DNA of 27,500 nt. Source: Schizochytrium sp. TIO01. Lineage: Eukaryota; Sar; Bigyra; Thraustochytrida; Thraustochytriidae. The notes under the pieces are model-generated. The model was not told the origin of the DNA, made no database searches, and worked only from the letters and a program-made list of their open reading frames with translations. The translations under genes were made by a program, and so were the position numbers. The DNA lies in assembly GCA_004764695.1 (NCBI GenBank), contig SMSO01000034.1, forward strand, positions 1,937,501-1,965,000. The letters run 5' to 3'. This document shows, one piece after another, positions 12,440 through 24,600 of the stretch. Each line of letters opens with the position of its first letter. Position 1 is the first letter of the stretch.

Positions 12440-15400
12440 TTATTCCAATCTAAAGTTTGCGACAACAATATCTGGTGTTAGCAAAGGCGACAATAACTCT
12501 TTCAAAACGAGTCGAAGATTTCTATCCTGAATTTTGGCATTCCAGTACTCACGCAGACGTTCTGCGCGGAGCAACTGCCACGCCTCACGAACCTGCTCAA
12601 AAGAATCAGCAAAAAATGGATCTTGCCCAAGTCTTCTTGAACAGGTTCTCACATGATCATGACATGCATCTTCATCCTGAGAACTGTAGCCAAGACACCA
12701 AGCGCAGAAGTGATGACCACAAGTCTCATTACCACACTCTACAGCACAGCAACCGTAAAAATCGTGTACATATGCCTTACAGTTCGGACAACATGTGCTC
12801 AAGATCTTCTCTTGAATATGAAGTAAATGAAGCCGTGCGTCGCGATTCTGTTCATCAGCACGTAAAACTTGTGCTATGCGCCTTTGGATCTCCTTCTCCG
12901 CCCACACTGCTGCTTCATTTTCTGCCTTCATCTTCGCAATCAACAATAGGTGATTCAAAGCAGTTGGTGCAAGACGGGTGATTTCTTGACCTGATATCCT
13001 TCCACTACATTCAGGTTTCATGCATGCCATCGTTCCATCAGCATCCACCCTTACGTTAGCAAGTGGCCGTGCCGCCGCTTCTACTGAAGATTCGATACAG
13101 TCTCTGCAAAGGAAGTCTCCCTCCTCGCAGCTCGTGCCCTCGGAAAGCAGACGCTCCTCCATGCATACTAGACATATCTTGACAGGGATCTTAGGAGCTC
13201 CAAAAGCTTCATGTTGGAGTGCTTGGCGAGCGGTTGGACGCTGGCCAGGGTCTGTTGCTGTAAGAGCATCGATAAGTTTCTGCATTGCAGCGGTTCGCTC
13301 AGTAGGATACAGCTCCTTTAAGCTTATGCCCACAGAGTACATATCCATCGCTGTTTCAAACCTATCTACAGGCCCATTCTGCAACTCGGGGGCAACGTAC
13401 CGTGGCGTTGCTTGAAGTGATGTGTAAGTTGCAGTGTAGTCTGCATTCTTGATGCCGTCAAAGTCGCCGATCAATGGTGTCCCGTTACTTGTGAGGAAAA
13501 TGTTTTCTGGTTTGATGTCACAATGCACAATGCCATGGGTATGTAAATCCGCCACGCCGATAAGCAGACCCATAGCAAGTCGGTCGCGTGCTGCTTTGCT
13601 TTCGTTAGGATGACTCTCAATCCACTTGGCAAGGTCACCTTGCTCGTAGAAAGGCATGACGATACAACCACGCGGTACTCCATGTGCCAGATCAACAAAA
13701 GCACCATTGATACGTATCACGTGCTGAGACACCACTTTGCCCAGATTCGCAACTTGTCTGTAGAAGGTTTTAGATTGACTTGAATGTCCAAGCTGAAACT
13801 CTTTTAGAACCATAGTTTTACCATCTCCATCAAATACTTTCTGGACTCTCTTGCCAACTCTGGAAGCAAGGGGCTCGCCGAGAGGCTTGAAGTCCGAAAC
13901 TGTGACATTCGTCAACCAAAGGTCAGAACATGCTACTTCAAAAACACCCTCTGCACTTACGTGAAGCCTTTCCAGCCAGGCTCTATCTTGCAGCAACTCT
14001 GGATAATGTTCCTGCGCGTGTTGCAGAGTTTCAGCAAGCTTATGACGAAAAGCTTTGCTAAGATCGATAGGGTTGCCTTGAGAGAGAATGAGCTCTTGTT
14101 TTCTGATACGATTTCTAAAATATGCTTGATCTTCCTCATCCATGTCCTCTATTTCGAGTTCTTCGTTGGCTCTCTTCAAAATTTCTGTGGCTATCCTCGA
14201 CTTGTCAAGTTTCTGGTATAATTCTTCAACATCTGAGACAGAAGGTTCTTTCAAACCCAGTACTGCATAGTCATACAGCTCAGAGAGCTCTTTTGGTGTG
14301 TAATTGCTCGCGTCATTCAACGTAGCACTCTCAGAGTATCCTTCAAATCGAGCAAATGTTGAACTTATCGCGCAAAATATTTTGGACAAGTGGGCACGAA
14401 GTGTATCTCCTTGTAGAGCTTTGATCTCTTCCTTGAGAGCACTCTCAAGTTCAGACAACTCGGGTTCTAGCTCCATGGCCTGCTCGGGTGATCTCAGAGC
14501 AACCGATAATCCATCACCAAGTTCTAGCTCAGACAATCGAGAGATGACGCGTTTTACAGCTTGTTGGCTTCGTTCACCAATGTTGTTGAGTTGGTCTTCT
14601 CCACTCCTTTTGTACCCTTCCACGCATTGGCCAGCCTGAATAACGAGTTCTTGGCAGTGTTTGAAGTCATCTGTGATGGTCTCTTCATCGACTGGAGCAA
14701 GGTTGATCTTTAGATCGTTTACCAAACTTTCAACTCTCTCTTTGAATTCTCGCACTGCACTCTCATCACTTTCACAAAGATTGGCGCGAACCCATGGGTA
14801 CACAACCTGCAAAAGTGAATACAGGTACCTCCGTTCGGTGTTCCGCTTTTCGATGAGGCTGGCCAAGCCATCAGCAGAGCTTGCACGAATCTGGCCTTGT
14901 CGCACGTCAAGACTCTCTTTGGAGTTCTTGATGTCAGCGAAAACCTGTCGCAACTTTACTTGGCCAAAGTAGCCCTGGATCGCCGGTCGAACGAATTCCT
15001 CAAGCAGGGCAATCCCAGTCTGCAGGGAGTTTCCTCTGACCCCACCTCGGTCCGCGCGCAAGTCCGAGACTTTCTTGGCAAGCTGCACCACATCAGCAAA
15101 ACTCACGCTCGCTCCATCCGGCCGTTCTCTGAGGCGAACAAGAAGACGTAAGCAAACGAGCAAAATGGTGTTGAAGCAGTAATAAAGGCAAAAGCAAAAG
15201 TTAGGATACCCTCTATCTCAATAACACAATTCGTGGAATGAATAATTACACGATCCCAAACAAAGACTGACCGCATGAACTTACCCAGATCCATCCAAAG
15301 TAGCAAGCCCGGCGCTCTCATCGCCATCTTGCTCGTTCTTGGGCTCTGCAGAAGGCTCGCTTTCTGCAGTCTCTATGGAAGCATAGGAATCGAGCTCTGA

Positions 15401-18400
15401 CGAGAAATCTGCAATGTCCTCTCCAGGAGAACACACCCTTTCGAACAATCGTTTAGGGGTTCCAGAAAAATTGTCATAGCTGCATTTGATAAATCAATGA
15501 ACGAAAGAAAGAGAATAAAAGCGCTTGTTAGAAAAACGATGCACGCAACTAAAGACGGCCTCGCAAGTCCATATGGAGACATGGAGAGAACCATAGAAGG
15601 CAAGGTTCTGCGCAAGCTGGGAATACCAGCAGAGGAAACGGAACTTACTAGATTTGAACAGAAGGACATGCTTTGTGCAGAGACTTTGCGACGGCCTTTG
15701 CGCCCTCCGAGCCAATGTCGTTGTTACGAAGACTGTGAGTATAAATGAATAAGTTTGTTTTATTCATTCGTTGTCAGGAAAGACAGGTCCAGTCAGTTGA
15801 TCCTGTTTTGTTTTGTTTTCCCTCACAATAAAAAGCAATCAGCTCTTCTTCTGCTGCTGCTGCTGCCTAGTATCAAATTATATAGATTTCTTTCTTCTCT
15901 TTGTAAAAAAGAAAAGACTTCTTTGCCTTTCTTTGCGTACCCAACTACGTAAACTACTTAGGTAGTGTACCAGCAGCACTACAAACACCAAGCACTAAAA
16001 ACAAAGAAAGAAAAAGCTTGGTCCTGACTATTACGATAGCTTTCCCTCGTGGATGATTCCACAAACGTACCCAAGTTTAGTCAGGTTCTTGCATCCCTCG
16101 AGTGCCTTTGCGACGGCCTTTGCGCCCTCTGAGCCAATGTCGTTGTTATTAAGACTGTGAGTATAAATGAATAAGTTTGTTTTGTTCATTCGTTGTCAGG
16201 AAAGACAGGTCCAGTCAGTTGATCCTGTTTTGTTTTGTTTTTCCTCACAATAAAAAGCAATCACCTCTTCTTCTTCTGCTGCTGCTGCCTATCAAATTAT
16301 ATAGATTTCCTTCTTCTCTTTGTAAAAAAGAAAAGACTTCTTTGCCTTTCTTTGCGTACCCAACTACGTAAACTACTTAGGTAGTGTACCAGCAGTACTA
16401 CAAACACCAAGCACTCAAAAGAAAGAAAGAAAAAGCTTGGTCCTGACTATTACGATAGCTTTCCCTCGTGGATGATTCCACAAACGTACTATAATTGTTG
16501 AAGGTTCTTGCATCCCTCGAGTGCCTTTGCGACGGCCTTTGCGCCCTCCGAGCCAATGCCATTCTCCTGAAGACTGTGAGTATAAATGAATAAGTTTGTT
16601 TTGTTCATTCGTTGTCAGGAAAGACAGGTCCAGTCAGTTGATCCTGTTTTGTTTTGCTTTTCCTCAATAAAAAGCAATCACCTCTTCTTCTGCTGCTGCT
16701 GCTGCCTATCAAATTATATAGATTTCCTTTTGCCCTTCCTTCTTCTCTTTGTAAACTAACCAACTACGTAAACTACTTAGGTAGTGTACCAGCAGTACTA
16801 CAAACACCAAGCACTAAAAAGAAAGAAAGAAAAAGCTTGGTCCTGACTATTACGATAGCTTTCCCTCGTGGATGATTCCACAAACGTACGCTAAAAATTG
16901 AAGGTTCTTGCATCCCTCGAGTGCCTTTGCGACGGCCTTTGCGCCCTCCGAGCCAATGTCGTTGTTATGAAGACTGTGAGTATAAATGAATAAGTTTGTT
17001 TTGTTCATTCGTTGTCAGGAAAGACAGGTCCAGTCAGTTGATCCTGTTTTGTTTTGTTTTTCCTCACAATATAAAGCAATCACCTCTTCTTCTGCTGCTG
17101 CGTATCACATTATATAGATTTGCTTTTGCGCTTCCTTCTTCTCTTTGTAAAAAAGAAAAGACTTCTTTGCCTTTCTTTGCGTACCCAACTACGTAAACTA
17201 CTTAGGTAGTGTACCAGCAGTACTACAAACACCAAGCACTAAAAACAAAGAAAGAAAAAGCTTGGTCCTGACTATTACGATAGCTTTCCCTCGTGGATGA
17301 TTCCACAAACGTACGCTAAAATTTGAAGGTTCTTGCATCCCTCGAGTGCCTTTGCGACGGCCTTTGCGCCCTCCGAGCCAATGTCGTTGTTATGAAGACT
17401 GTGAGTATAAATGAATAAGTTTGTTTTGTTCATTCGTTGTCAGGAAAGACAGGTCCAGTCAGTTGATCCTGTTTTGTTTTGTTTTTCCTCACAATAAAAA
17501 GCAATCACCTCTTCTTCTTCTGCTGCTGCTGCCTAGTATCAAATTATATAGATTTCCTTCTTCTCTTTGTAAAAAAGAAAAGACTTCTTTGCCTTTCTTT
17601 GCGTACCCAGCTACGTAAACTACTTAGGTAGTGTACCAGCAGTACTACAAACACCAAGCACTGAAAAGAAAGAAAGAAAAAGCTTGGTCTTGACTATTAC
17701 GATAGCTTTCCCTCGTGGATGATTCCACAAACGTACCCAAGTTTAGTCAGGTTCTTGCATCCCTCGAGTGCCTTTGCGACTGCTTTTGCGCCCTCTGAGC
17801 CAATGTCGTGCCCACCAAGACTGTGTTTGTTTGTTTGTTTGTGAACAAGTGAGATTTGTTTTGTTCATTCGTTGTCAGGAAAGACAGGTCCAGTCAGTTG
17901 ATCCTGTTTTGTTTTGTTTTTCCTCACAATAAAAAGCAATCAGCTCTTCTTCTTCTGCTGCTGCTGCCTATCAAATTCTATAGATTTCCTTCTTCTCTTT
18001 GTAAAAAAGAAAAGACTTCTTTGCCTTTCTTTGCGTACCCAACTACGTAAACTACTTAGGTAGTGTACCAGCAGTACTACAAACACCAAGCACTAAAAAC
18101 AAAGAAAGAAAAAGCTTGGTCCTGACTATTACGATAGCTTTCCCTCGTGGATGATTCCACAAACGTACACTAAAGTTTGAAGGTTCTTGCATCCCTCGAG
18201 TGCCTTTGCGACGGCCTTTGCGCCCTCATCGCCAATGTTGTTGTTGTCAAGACTGTGAGTATAAATTCATTCGTTGTCAGGAAAGACAGGTCCAGTCAGT
18301 TGATCCTGTTTTGTTTTGTTTTTCCTCACAATAAAAAGCAATCACCTCTTCTTCTGCTGCTGCTGCTGCTGCCTATCAAATTATATAGATTTCCTTCTTC

Positions 18401-19756
18401 TCTTTGTAAAAAAGAAAAGACTTCTTTGCCTTTCTTTGCGTACCCAACTACGTAAACTACTTAGGTAGTGTACCAGCAGTACTACAAACACCAAGCACTA
18501 AAAACAAAGAAAGAAAAAGCTTGGTCCTGACTATTACGATAGCTTTCCCTCGTGGATGATTCCACAAACGTACTGTAAAGATTGAAGGTTCTTGCATCCC
18601 TCGAGTGCCTTTGCGACGGCCTTTGCGCCCTCATCGCCAATGTTGTTATACTGAAGACTGTGAGTATAAATGAATAAGTTTGTTTTGTTCATTCGTTGTC
18701 AGGAGAGACAGGTCCAGTCAGTTGATCCTGTTTTGTTTTGGTTTTCCGCACAATAAAATCAATCACCTCATCTTGTGCTGCTGCCTATCAAATTATATAG
18801 ATTTCGTTTTGCCCTTCCTTCTTCTCTTTGTAAAAAAGAAAAGACTTCTTTGCCTTTCTTTGCGTACCCAACTACGTAAACTACTTTAGGTAGTGTACCA
18901 GCAGTACTACAAACACCAAGCACTCAAAAGAAAGAAAGAAAAAGCTTGGTCCTGACTATTACGATAGCTTTCCCTCGTGGATGATTCCACAAACGTACTG
19001 TAAAGTTTGAAGGTTCTTGCATCCCTCGAGTGCCTTTGCGACGGCCTTTGCGCCCTCATCGCCAATGTTGTTCTCAGAAAGACTGTGAGTATAAATGAAT
19101 AAGTTTGTTTTGTTCATTCGTTGTCAGGAGAGACAGGTCCAGTCAGTTGATCCTGTTTTGTTTTGGTTTTCCGCACAATAAAATCAATCACCTCATCTTG
19201 TGCTGCTGCCTATCAAATTATATAGATTTCGTTTTGCCCTTCCTTCTTCTCTTTGTAAAAAAGAAAAGACTTCTTTGCCTTTCTAAAGTACCCAACTATG
19301 TAAACTACGTAGGTAGTGTACCAGCAGTGCTTTCGTTTTGATTCCTTTCCCCTAGTACCAACACCACTCAAAATAAAGAAAGAAAAAGCTTGGTTCTGCC
19401 TGTTTCGATAGCTTTCTCTCGTGGATGATTCCACAAACGTACTACAATTTTTGAAGGTTCTTGCATCGCTCGAGTGCCTTTGCGACGGCCTTTGCGCACT
19501 CATCGTTAATGTCGTGCCCACCAAGACTGTGTTTGTTTGTTTGTTTGTGAACAAGTGAGAGTAAGTATATGCCATTTCCAACTTCTTCATGAGTGCCACT
19601 ACTAGTACAAAACTATTCTTCTTCTACAAAGCTGACTACTACAACACATCGACGACGCGATGCCTCCTTCTTCTGTCTCCTCCCTTCTGCATCGTGCACC
19701 TACCGAATCTCCGTCGTATCTTCTCTGATGTCCTCAATTTTGCTTGCCGTAGTCAT
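12440..19756 (-). CDS. LRR - protein kinase - RING/RBR-like fusion protein
   Basis: Thirteen predicted exons: 19756-19704, ten 84-base LRR exons (19526-15649), 15479-15285 and 15128-12440. All junctions are phase 2, and the sum is 3777 bases (1258 residues plus stop). ATG 19756 has an in-frame TGA 24 bases upstream. Residues 18-298 are ten LRRs of ribonuclease-inhibitor type. Residues 299-362 are an acidic Ser/Glu-rich linker. Residues 364-770 are helical and Glu/Lys/Leu-rich. The kinase is at about 771-1005: Lys805 (VLKEF), HCDIKPEN with Asp900, DFD in place of DFG (Asp918), APE at 942-944 and Arg993. Its Gly-loop is degenerate. A RING1-like set follows (C1015, C1018, C1030, C1037, C1040, C1065, C1070), then a charged helix and a RING2-like set (C1143, C1146, C1157, C1161, C1166, C1171, C1174, then CHDHVRTC). 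There is no signal peptide or membrane segment, so it is probably cytosolic. Inferred role: ligand recognition by the LRRs coupled to phosphorylation and ubiquitin transfer. Substrate and partners are unknown. Confidence 0.85.
15129..15284 (-). other. Intron before the helical-kinase-RING exon
   Basis: 156 bases, donor GTAAGTTC, acceptor CGCCTCAG, phase 2 (GG then A makes Gly363). The long minus-strand frame reads through the acceptor as far as 15163 from a TTG, which is not the true start. Confidence 0.8.
15480..15648 (-). other. Intron joining the last LRR exon to the linker exon
   Basis: 169 bases, donor GTAAGTTCC, acceptor AAATGCAG, phase 2. It is unrelated to the repeat-unit introns. 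It explains why the plus strand shows a plausible-looking 83-codon frame across 15497-15748, which is antisense to this intron and the last LRR exon. Confidence 0.8.
15649..19526 (-). repeat. Tandem array of ten LRR exon-intron units
   Basis: Exons in gene order: 19526-19443, 19082-18999, 18657-18574, 18252-18169, 17820-17737, 17398-17315, 16973-16890, 16573-16490, 16154-16071, 15732-15649. Each is exactly 84 bases, phase 2 at both ends, and encodes one 28-residue LRR. The nine intervening introns are 316-360 bases. They begin GTACGTTTGTGGAATC, and most end TACTCACAG. They contain CCAAGC and GCTTGG arms and variable CTT/CTG triplet runs. Residues 9-24 of the units (core EGAKAVAKALEGCKNL) hardly change, while residues 2-5, 25, 26 and 28 vary. 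In order, residues 2-3 read GG, SE, QY, DN, GG, HN, HN, QE, NN, RN. Residues 25-26 and 28 read QK-Y, QT-H, QS-H, QT-V, TK-G, QI-A, QF-A, QQ-Y, TK-G, then VQ and Y. The first and last units differ most from the others. Confidence 0.93.
19527..19703 (-). other. First intron of the LRR-kinase gene
   Basis: 177 bases, donor GTAGGTGC after ATTCG, phase 2, acceptor AACACAG. The acceptor end holds a CAAA-type repeat (GTTT on plus, about 19528-19547), which recurs at the acceptor of LRR exon 5 (17821-17845). It joins a short N-terminal exon (MTTASKIEDIREDTTEI) to the first LRR. Confidence 0.75.
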
Positions 19757-21689: not shown

Positions 21690-24600
21690 ATGATTAGAGA
21701 AAACATGATTTCAGATCACTCTTGTGACTTCTTTGGCGAAATGAACAAGCGGACGCTTCGAAAGCTTCGTGAAGGTTCGGTTACCAAAAATATAGAGTAA
21801 GTGTAAAAGTAAGAGAAGATCTTTGGACACAGAAACACCAGACCAAGAATATCTAGCCAGTTAGTAAAAATTTGACTTCCCCGTGTTGATCTGCCGTGCG
21901 TGCATTATTCATGTGCTGGATACAGATTTGAAAGGGCTACTGACTTTGAGCTTGCTGATGATGCAAAATCTTTTCTTTTTTTTAATATAATAGACTAAGT
22001 GGGTACCATTGGGCACGAGTTCAAATTAGCAACGAAGGTTGGCAAGCCTTGACTGAGGCAGTCAAGGAAAATCGTGTGGAATCAACCTTGAAGTGAGTTT
22101 TCGTTAAAGATTCCGTAATCGCGCGGCATTGTAGACGATCATTAAAGCATGACTGACGGAAGCTGTTCTTTCTCGGTGTTTCGGAGGAAATTCTCGATGA
22201 ATAGACTCAAGAACATTAATATTAGCAATGATCATTGGGTTGCTCTCGCAAACGCACTGAAGGAGACTACAGGGAGACTACAGTAATGTCTGGGCTCATG
22301 TAAGTGAGAATTAACATTTCGTGTGTTGAGGCAATGGATCTGATCACACCATTTCATGTTTAATTATATATACACTAACATGAATGATTACCCGTCGGGG
22401 CACACAATACCATCCTTTGATGGTGGCTAACAAGCAGCTTGTGTAACGTCCCATTCACCACTGAAATGATCAAGGGCTTGGATGGTGTTCTGAAGAAGAA
22501 CCGAGCTTTGAAGCGTTTGGGGTGAGTTCAGCTAAGTCAAGGTGAAATGTCATCTAGGTCCCACCTGACAGGTTGTCATTTTTTTTGTTGACGAGCATGT
22601 CATTGGGGACGACTTTGTAGGATCATTATTTGAAAGTTGCTAACAGTGAGATTATTTGGTGGTTACTATAATACTCCTTGTTATCAATGGGTGCGCAGGC
22701 TTTTGGATAACAATTTTGGGAGTGAAGCTTTTGCGATTTTGGTGGAAGCTCTGAAGATGAATGAGACGCTGAAATGTTTGGAGTGAGTTTGTTGAAGCAG
22801 TAAGACAAGATATGTGGTCTCTTTGTTGGTCATTAAAGAGGTTTTAGTAGCAAAATGAGAATGACGACTGACGATGGTATAAATTGATGTGGTTTTATTT
22901 GTGAGCGAGCAGGATTGAAAGGAATATCGGGGCTGACGATTGCGTCGTTTTAGCTGATAGTCTAAAGAACAACCAGTCACTGAGTACAGTAAAGTGAGTA
23001 TAGTCGGCCTTGGAATTTTTGCTAGATGTTATGTCTTGTCGTGCATATAAGAGAGTTATATGATAGGCAGCTAACAAATTGTGCGATGCGTTGGCATGGT
23101 GCTCTATTGAATGGGCAGTCTTGATGACAATACGATTGGCAGCAAAGGTTGTTTGGCTTTGGCCGAGGTGCTCAAGGTAAACGAAACGCTGCGAATTCTA
23201 CAGTAAGTATATATAGTCTATATATGCCGCCGGATACAAGAATGTTTCTGATAGTCGTGCAGGAAGTTTGCTGACGTTACTGTCGATTGATTAAACGATA
23301 CTGTTGCATAATGTTTGACAAGCGGGGGCTTACAGACTTCGTGGTAACAACGTTGGCAGATACACTCAAGAAGAACAAGACGCTGACAGAGTTGGGATGA
23401 GTTGAACAAGATTTCAAGTGTATTCATGTGTCTGTAAAATGGTGAACATGTGGGGCACAAGGAGAGGTTTTGCCTTGATCTTTTTAAAATTATAAATGCA
23501 TGGTGAGAAATGTTTGAGCAAGGTGGCTGACGTTCAAACTTGAGTGAAATCACTTTTATTTTTTCATTGTCAATTGTGGACCAACAGGCTGGGGAACAAC
23601 AATATTGACAACAAAGGTTGTGCAGCGTTGGCGGATGCGCTCAAGACAAACCATACGTTGACCATGCTAGAGTGAGTTGACTGTTATACCCTTTGCATGC
23701 ATGCAACAAGAGGGTTAATCATATGATATACTGACAGGAAGTATTAGAATGATTACGATTCTTAAAACAATTTGTTGTCTTTGGCCGAGTACGGATGCGC
23801 AGCCTTACATCTAACAAAATCAACGACGAAGGATGGGTGGGCTTGGCTGAAGTACTGAAGGAGAACAAGACGGTGGAAACGTTGCTGTGAGTTAGACTAG
23901 CAATTTATCAGGCTATTGCCGGTACGAGAAGATACCCATTGTAGCTTCTTTTGCAAAGAGATAACTGACTTTGATATGAATTGACGCATTTTCTTTTTCA
24001 ACAGGATGAATGGAAGCATTGTTGGCGATAAAGGTTGTGCGACGTTTGCTGAGGTACTCCAGAAAAGCCATTCGCTGAAAAACCTAGGGTGAGTTGAGCA
24101 ATCTATGTGTCAGACCATTCTGAGAATACACGGACCTTTGTTCAAATTCTTGTCTGTTTCAAGTAAACGATGGAAATTTAGAAGCATAGAGTTGCACATG
24201 TAGTGGGTTCGTACTAATTGTGCAGGAAGACTATTTGTTAAGATAGCTGACTTTCGTGTAAAAATGGAAACAAATGAAATGATTTGCTATTTCGTTTTGG
24301 ACTAATAGTCTGGGTACAAAGTACTTTGATAACACAGGCTTTCGCGCTTTTATGGATGTACTCAAGGAAAACCAGGTTTTGAAAGCGCTATTGTGAGTTG
24401 AATGCCTTTTTTTGAGGAGGGGAGGGCTCTGACTGATGCAGAAATGATCAGAGGGTCGAAAGAAGTTGTGTAATTACGTGTTTGGTTCAAGCAAGTAGAG
24501 CAGGAAGCGATGCTTGTTTTTGAAACCATGAGGAAGCCATTCGTGACACTGTCAGAGGACTAACGTTGGATTGGAAGGGGTTATGGCACCCAACAACGTT

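Follow-up and report, generated by a model that had tools for sequence, protein, structure and literature searches.

The window analysed here, a stretch of 27,500 nucleotides (nt) of the Schizochytrium sp. TIO01 genome (C33:1937501-1965000 in an assembly of 64.06 Mb and 37 contigs), carries on its minus strand an array of ten leucine-rich repeat (LRR) exons of 84 nt each, part of a predicted spliced gene that also encodes a protein kinase. A few codons on one face of these repeats differ among the units of an array about 18 times more than the introns between them. The array extends from 19526 to 15649, exactly as given in a preliminary description of this DNA, with AG/GT at the exon edges. 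The introns between the LRR exons are in phase 2 throughout, 316-360 nt long and near-identical, aligning closely with one another, and Tandem Repeats Finder reports a single array in the window, with a period of ~425 and 9.1 copies. The exons are as follows:

19443 to 19526, minus strand: LRR exon 1, LGGHDINDECAKAVAKALERCKNLQKL followed by Y
18999 to 19082, minus strand: LRR exon 2
18574 to 18657, minus strand: LRR exon 3
18169 to 18252, minus strand: LRR exon 4
17737 to 17820, minus strand: LRR exon 5, in which LGGHD recurs from exon 1 and TKLG is repeated in exon 9
17315 to 17398, minus strand: LRR exon 6
16890 to 16973, minus strand: LRR exon 7
16490 to 16573, minus strand: LRR exon 8
16071 to 16154, minus strand: LRR exon 9
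15649 to 15732, minus strand: LRR exon 10, the C-cap version, KSLHKACPSVQI

The end of the intron 5' of LRR exon 5 resembles that of the intron 5' of LRR exon 1. The ten exons had been described as alike, which holds for the nine internal units; the tenth is a C-cap with a 3' end unlike the other nine, and C-cap exons similar to KSLHKACPSVQI stand at the end of most sampled arrays. When joined, the exons yield LRRs of the ribonuclease-inhibitor type (a type with repeats of 28-29 residues, an LxxLxLxx(N/C) strand and a characteristic helix pattern), matched by Pfam LRR_6 over nine stretches (8.8e-55) and, among solved structures, by ribonuclease inhibitor (1dfj, 3.3e-28) and by NLRP3-type chains. 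In this fold the strand LxxLxLxxN lines the concave face, and each intron splits this strand, as L24xxL27x28|L1x2x3N4.

We compared units within 24 arrays of this single genome, taken from the best matches and comprising 211 internal exons. Differences per nucleotide amounted to 0.562 at the concave codons 2, 3, 26 and 28, compared to 0.031 in the introns, 0.013 at the convex codons 9-23 and 0.012 at the third position of L1. The ratio of concave to intron differences was thus 18.1 (95% confidence interval 13.7-23.4, bootstrap over the 24 arrays) and exceeded 9 in every one of the 21 arrays with measurable introns, while the convex side was less variable than the introns (ratio 0.42). The nine internal units of the window gave the same picture on their own, with 0.624 for the concave codons, 0.020 for codons 9-23 and 0.042 for the introns, a concave-to-intron ratio of 14.9 (bootstrap 95% 9.4-29.4). 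Fewer arrays, with divergent ones included, yielded a proportion of nonsynonymous differences (pN) of 0.58 at codons 2-3, against 0.040 in introns and a proportion of synonymous differences (pS) of 0.020 on the convex side. Variation on the strand therefore lies far above the intron level, as the preliminary description had proposed, and neither of the outcomes that it had named as fatal, intron divergence reaching codon divergence or a missing nonsynonymous excess on the strand, was observed. As relaxed sites should not surpass the neutral level, either selection for difference or focused mutation is needed.

The positions named previously as variable (25, 26, 28, 2 and 3, with 4 and 5 less so) are largely borne out, but the set was incomplete. 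Ordered by amino-acid entropy, the codons rank 2, 3, 28, 26, 5, 8, 25 and 4, so that codon 5 is as variable as codon 25, and codon 8, which had been missed, alternates mostly between two states, Asp (GAT) and Ser (TCG, TCA), after the strand and unlinked to both variable blocks. Codons 24 and 27 (both Leu) also vary, but silently, and are linked to codons 25-28.

From splice signals and open frame we built a gene model in which the LRR exons form part of one predicted gene running from 19756 to 12440 on the minus strand and encoding 1,258 residues (MTTASK...). Beside the LRR exons it contains:

19704 to 19756 (53 nt), minus strand: exon 1, with the start codon and MTTASKIEDIREDTTEI; it ends in phase 2, and the open frame joins LRR exon 1 in phase
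15285 to 15479, minus strand: acidic linker exon (YDNFSGTPKRLFERV...LDGSG), placed by its open frame and splice signals and in phase 2 at either end
12440 to 15128, minus strand: last exon, with a helical region, protein kinase, Cys-rich RING-like tail and stop, placed by Pfam, motifs and paralogs

The first of these (MTTASKIEDIREDTTEI) recurs unchanged in array L021 and as a variant in L034. The predicted protein thus consists of ten LRRs, the linker, a helical region, for which no match was obtained, the kinase and a Cys/His-rich tail. It had been described as a kinase-RING protein, and the kinase half of this label is confirmed (Pfam Pkinase PF00069, 6e-30): the motifs VLKEF, HCDIKPEN and GDFDG are retained with small changes across the ten paralogs examined, and the kinase body is under purifying selection, with ratios of nonsynonymous to synonymous rates (dN/dS) of 0.12-0.40 by region. 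For the tail, the evidence consists of its conserved Cys and His residues, with a Cys pattern invariant among paralogs, and of weak matches to PDB profiles of parkin, Ariadne, RNF4 and the zinc region of E3A (best 0.017). No Pfam model matches the tail, even at E 5, and a single-sequence structure model of the tail reaches a pLDDT of only 40. A full RING-between-RING (RBR) assignment was not obtained, and we call the tail only RING-like; it looks like a RING or RBR region. Nowhere do the 1,258 residues reach the hydrophobicity expected of a membrane anchor or a signal peptide (the highest Kyte-Doolittle mean over 19 residues is 1.24), and the predicted protein is therefore probably intracellular. 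Neither an NB-ARC nor a NACHT domain, either of which would have placed it among the NLRs, was found in Pfam searches of the protein. A second LRR gene lies in the same window at 22699-24088 on the plus strand, with at least five phase-2 LRR exons of 84 nt, including LLDNNFGSEAFAILVEALKMNETLKCL, and introns of differing lengths; the 84-nt format is hence not limited to the kinase family.

A 925-residue open reading frame (ORF) spanning kinase and tail has 49 matches in the genome, 42 of them without internal stops, and a 56-residue LRR query finds 1,351 candidate places, a rough count; candidate LRR exons number about a thousand. The arrays sampled follow this 84-nt phase-2 pattern, the largest holding 23 LRR exons, and assembly errors are possible in long arrays. 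The family of about 49 genes is presumed to be mostly subtelomeric: 34 of the 49 lie at most 100 kb from one of 45 copies of ribosomal DNA (rDNA), located by a short pattern, and a further ten sit no more than about 65 kb from the end of a contig. The genome yielded no TTAGGG-type telomere repeats. Around the window (G000, C33:1931596 to 2029309), two oppositely oriented family genes are flanked by rDNA copies that are themselves in opposite orientation, as if the assembly had joined two chromosome ends. Array regions at the ends of C24 and C32 are identical across 3,967 nt, and one on C35 is 99% identical across 1.5 kb; these three (L037, L038, L054) are very recent subtelomeric copies. Two short or broken arrays, L052 (C5:11000-16000) and L053 (C23:32000-36500), have no listed kinase body nearby and are possibly orphan donors or decayed genes.

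With three divergent arrays excluded, the mean intron distance of an array to the units of the window stays at 2.7-6.6% while kinase-body identity ranges from 94% to 83% (Spearman 0.02); silent divergence of the body (pS) is about 0.08-0.16 to the nearer genes and 0.28-0.69 to the distant ones. Introns and convex codons are thus homogenised across the family. Variation at the concave codons within arrays reaches 0.93 of that between arrays. Judged from the intron distances, exchange crosses between genes, probably including genes on different contigs. The three excluded arrays (L027, L035, L036), whose introns differ by 20-40% from those of the window, seem to be members that escaped homogenisation.

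Exchange also operates at a much finer scale than the unit. Linkage holds between codons 2 and 3 and among codons 24-28; these two blocks and codon 8 are mutually unlinked within an exon, and no linkage joins the two blocks across the intron either. Within arrays, the squared correlation (r2) between exon sites drops from 0.27 for sites 1-3 nt apart to 0.019 for those 9-15 nt apart. Between intron sites it has values of 0.053 (16-30 nt) and 0.014 (31-60 nt), the null being 0.006. The same measure showed no clear linkage between variable codons and introns. The strand variants therefore reassort almost freely. Since introns lose linkage too, general short-tract exchange is sufficient, and we discarded as unneeded the idea of cassettes that move separately from intron exchange.

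How, then, could such a pattern have arisen? One explanation holds that the arrays serve mainly as a source of spliced variants, germline variety reflecting exon skipping or choice in the mRNA. All LRR exons being 84 nt long and phase 2-2, any of them could be skipped in frame, and alternative splicing of such exons has been reported for brown-algal ROCO genes (PMC11378527). Alone, however, splicing accounts neither for the concave excess nor for homogenisation between genes; we regard it as an unlikely principal cause, albeit one compatible with the explanation we prefer.

Another explanation invokes a dedicated mechanism, either targeted hypermutation or templated insertion of short cassettes, which would alter the strand codons under otherwise ordinary selection. 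The edges of variation are indeed very sharp: a diversity of about 0.6 gives way, inside a few bases, to one of a few per cent. The variants also act as blocks, roughly 6 and 11 nt in length, independent of their surroundings. Yet the silent site of L1, immediately next to codon 2, is quiet (0.012, against 0.031 in introns). Moreover, the residues of the strand are almost uniformly encoded: Thr26 is ACT in 94 of 94 cases, Ser2 TCT in 41 of 41, Ser3 AGC in 27 of 27 and Asn3 AAC in 56 of 56, with Asp2 (GAC 14, GAT 5) less uniform, whereas the kinase-tail ORF writes each of Thr, Ser and Asn with several codons. As each residue has nearly one codon, and a different one by position (Ser2 TCT, Ser3 AGC), this uniformity mainly reflects identity by descent rather than recurrent mutation. 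The variants are also shared, those of 66% of units at codons 2-3 and 73% at codons 25-28 being found in another array, and units whose introns show one or two substitutions per 500 nt may be distinguished by whole known variants, for example at codons 25-28 (six bases between units 5 and 8 of L022, eight between units 3 and 8 of L025). Most rare codons lie a single step from a common one (85% at codon 2, scarcely above the 76% expected by chance, all at codon 3, 86% at codon 26), which fits an ordinary mutation supply. Intron linkage, finally, is also gone within about 60 nt, so that short-tract exchange suffices, and no candidate machinery was seen, though none was sought. The preliminary description had left the choice between selection and targeting open; the quiet silent site, uniform codons, shared variants and whole-variant swaps favour selection on a shared variant pool combined with family-wide conversion and speak against targeted mutation, which we consider improbable. 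Because strand variants reassort almost freely at 10-60 nt, there is a slim chance that the strand codons are renewed by a dedicated system, somatic or germline, that copies short variants into the LRR exons, which would give this protist an anticipatory, combinatorial receptor repertoire.

A further objection is that the introns might be conserved for splicing or RNA structure and hence be a poor neutral yardstick. Their ends are more conserved than their middles, but even with all units counted, those of divergent arrays among them, the middles differ by only about 0.1, and silent sites on the convex side (pS 0.018-0.020 within arrays) and at L1 agree with the introns. The 20-40% divergence in the three escaped arrays indicates, moreover, that intron sequence is not fixed by need, and we give this objection little credence. 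Relaxed constraint, finally, is hardly credible: exposed strand residues may tolerate many amino acids where convex ones are constrained, but free variation would need introns as different as codons 2, 3, 26 and 28, and the neighbouring introns differ 18 times less.

We therefore think it quite probable that the array encodes the ligand-binding half of one LRR-kinase-(RING-like) receptor, homogenised by conversion and exchange while diversifying selection preserves variety on its binding face. Unequal exchange and short-tract gene conversion would reshuffle the LRR units within arrays and between genes, keeping introns and convex codons nearly uniform throughout the family, and diversifying (balancing) selection would maintain many alternative residues at codons 2, 3, 26 and 28 and, less so, at codons 5, 8 and 25. 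We infer that the exchange proceeds by recombination rather than by another copying process, and that the selection is for recognition of varied ligands. The protein could then use its kinase and tail for signalling, either in defence or in telling self from non-self, a role suggested by the pattern of variation, and the roughly 49 gene copies would likely represent intracellular receptors whose exons are swapped and whose few ligand-face codons are held extremely diverse. Several points weigh against this interpretation: the linkage tests count related units as samples, the quiet L1 silent site could partly reflect splice-site constraint, sampling from best matches biases toward similar arrays, with divergent ones excluded from the ratio of 18.1, and one genome cannot tell balancing selection from repeated sweeps.

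If the interpretation is correct, this protist would possess a large repertoire for recognition; none is described for it in the literature we searched, where nothing relevant on LRR receptors in thraustochytrids was found. The family would also join fungal WD repeats and brown-algal LRR exons as an instance of one strategy, in which many exchangeable repeats are homogenised throughout a family and selection is restricted to the binding face. Here the introns provide a neutral yardstick inside every repeat, making exchange tract length, mutation supply and selection separately measurable.

Variation on the concave LRR face is also seen in lamprey variable lymphocyte receptors (VLRs) and in the hypervariable LRRs of plant NLRs. 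VLRs are assembled somatically from donor cassettes, however, and plant NLRs carry NB-ARC and usually lack exon-per-repeat units. Podospora anserina HET-D and HET-E carry a STAND NTPase and a HET domain. In place of the WD40, NACHT/STAND and HET domains of that (NWD/hnwd) family, we find LRRs and a kinase. The parallel drawn earlier with these proteins is nonetheless apt. Their WD repeats are exchanged within and between ten family members, with diversifying selection acting on four surface residues of each repeat (PMC1805685), repeat number varies and repeat-induced point mutation has been proposed as the mutation source (PMC1805685, PMC2873952), and rearrangements were seen directly in spontaneous mutants (PMC2873952). 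Both systems are multi-gene families with concerted repeat evolution within and between loci and a few diversifying surface residues per repeat, but the Podospora WD40 repeats have no intron each, whereas the LRRs described here are intron-bearing and joined to a kinase and a RING-like tail.

The exon-intron-unit format had been thought new; it has precedents in brown algae and Tetrahymena, and this claim therefore falls. Brown algae are stramenopiles, as are thraustochytrids. According to PMC11378527 (citing Zambounis 2012), each LRR of the brown-algal ROCO genes has its own 72-nt exon in phase 2, concave sites are under positive selection, and the exons are alternatively spliced. These candidate immune receptors share with our family the single LRR per phase-2 exon, exon shuffling and concave diversification, but differ in their 72-nt exons and ROC-COR GTPase, in place of 84-nt ribonuclease-inhibitor-type exons, a kinase body and introns near-identical family-wide; Pfam found no ROC-COR domain in the kinase-tail ORF. 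Tetrahymena has thousands of LRR exons of exactly 90 nt, in phase 2 and in near-identical units, some fused to kinases; these group III genes have undergone rapid species-specific expansion and lie near chromosome ends and centromeres (PMC6564038). They resemble our family in their near-identical exon-intron units, fixed exon length, phase-2 introns and occasional protein kinase, but are linked to the REP retrotransposon and have another architecture, and the term 'positive selection' is absent from the text of PMC6564038. In the way they vary, the thraustochytrid genes seem to resemble the self/non-self genes of fungi and the candidate immune genes of brown algae. To our knowledge, their architecture, the yardstick that the introns provide and reassortment on so fine a scale are new.

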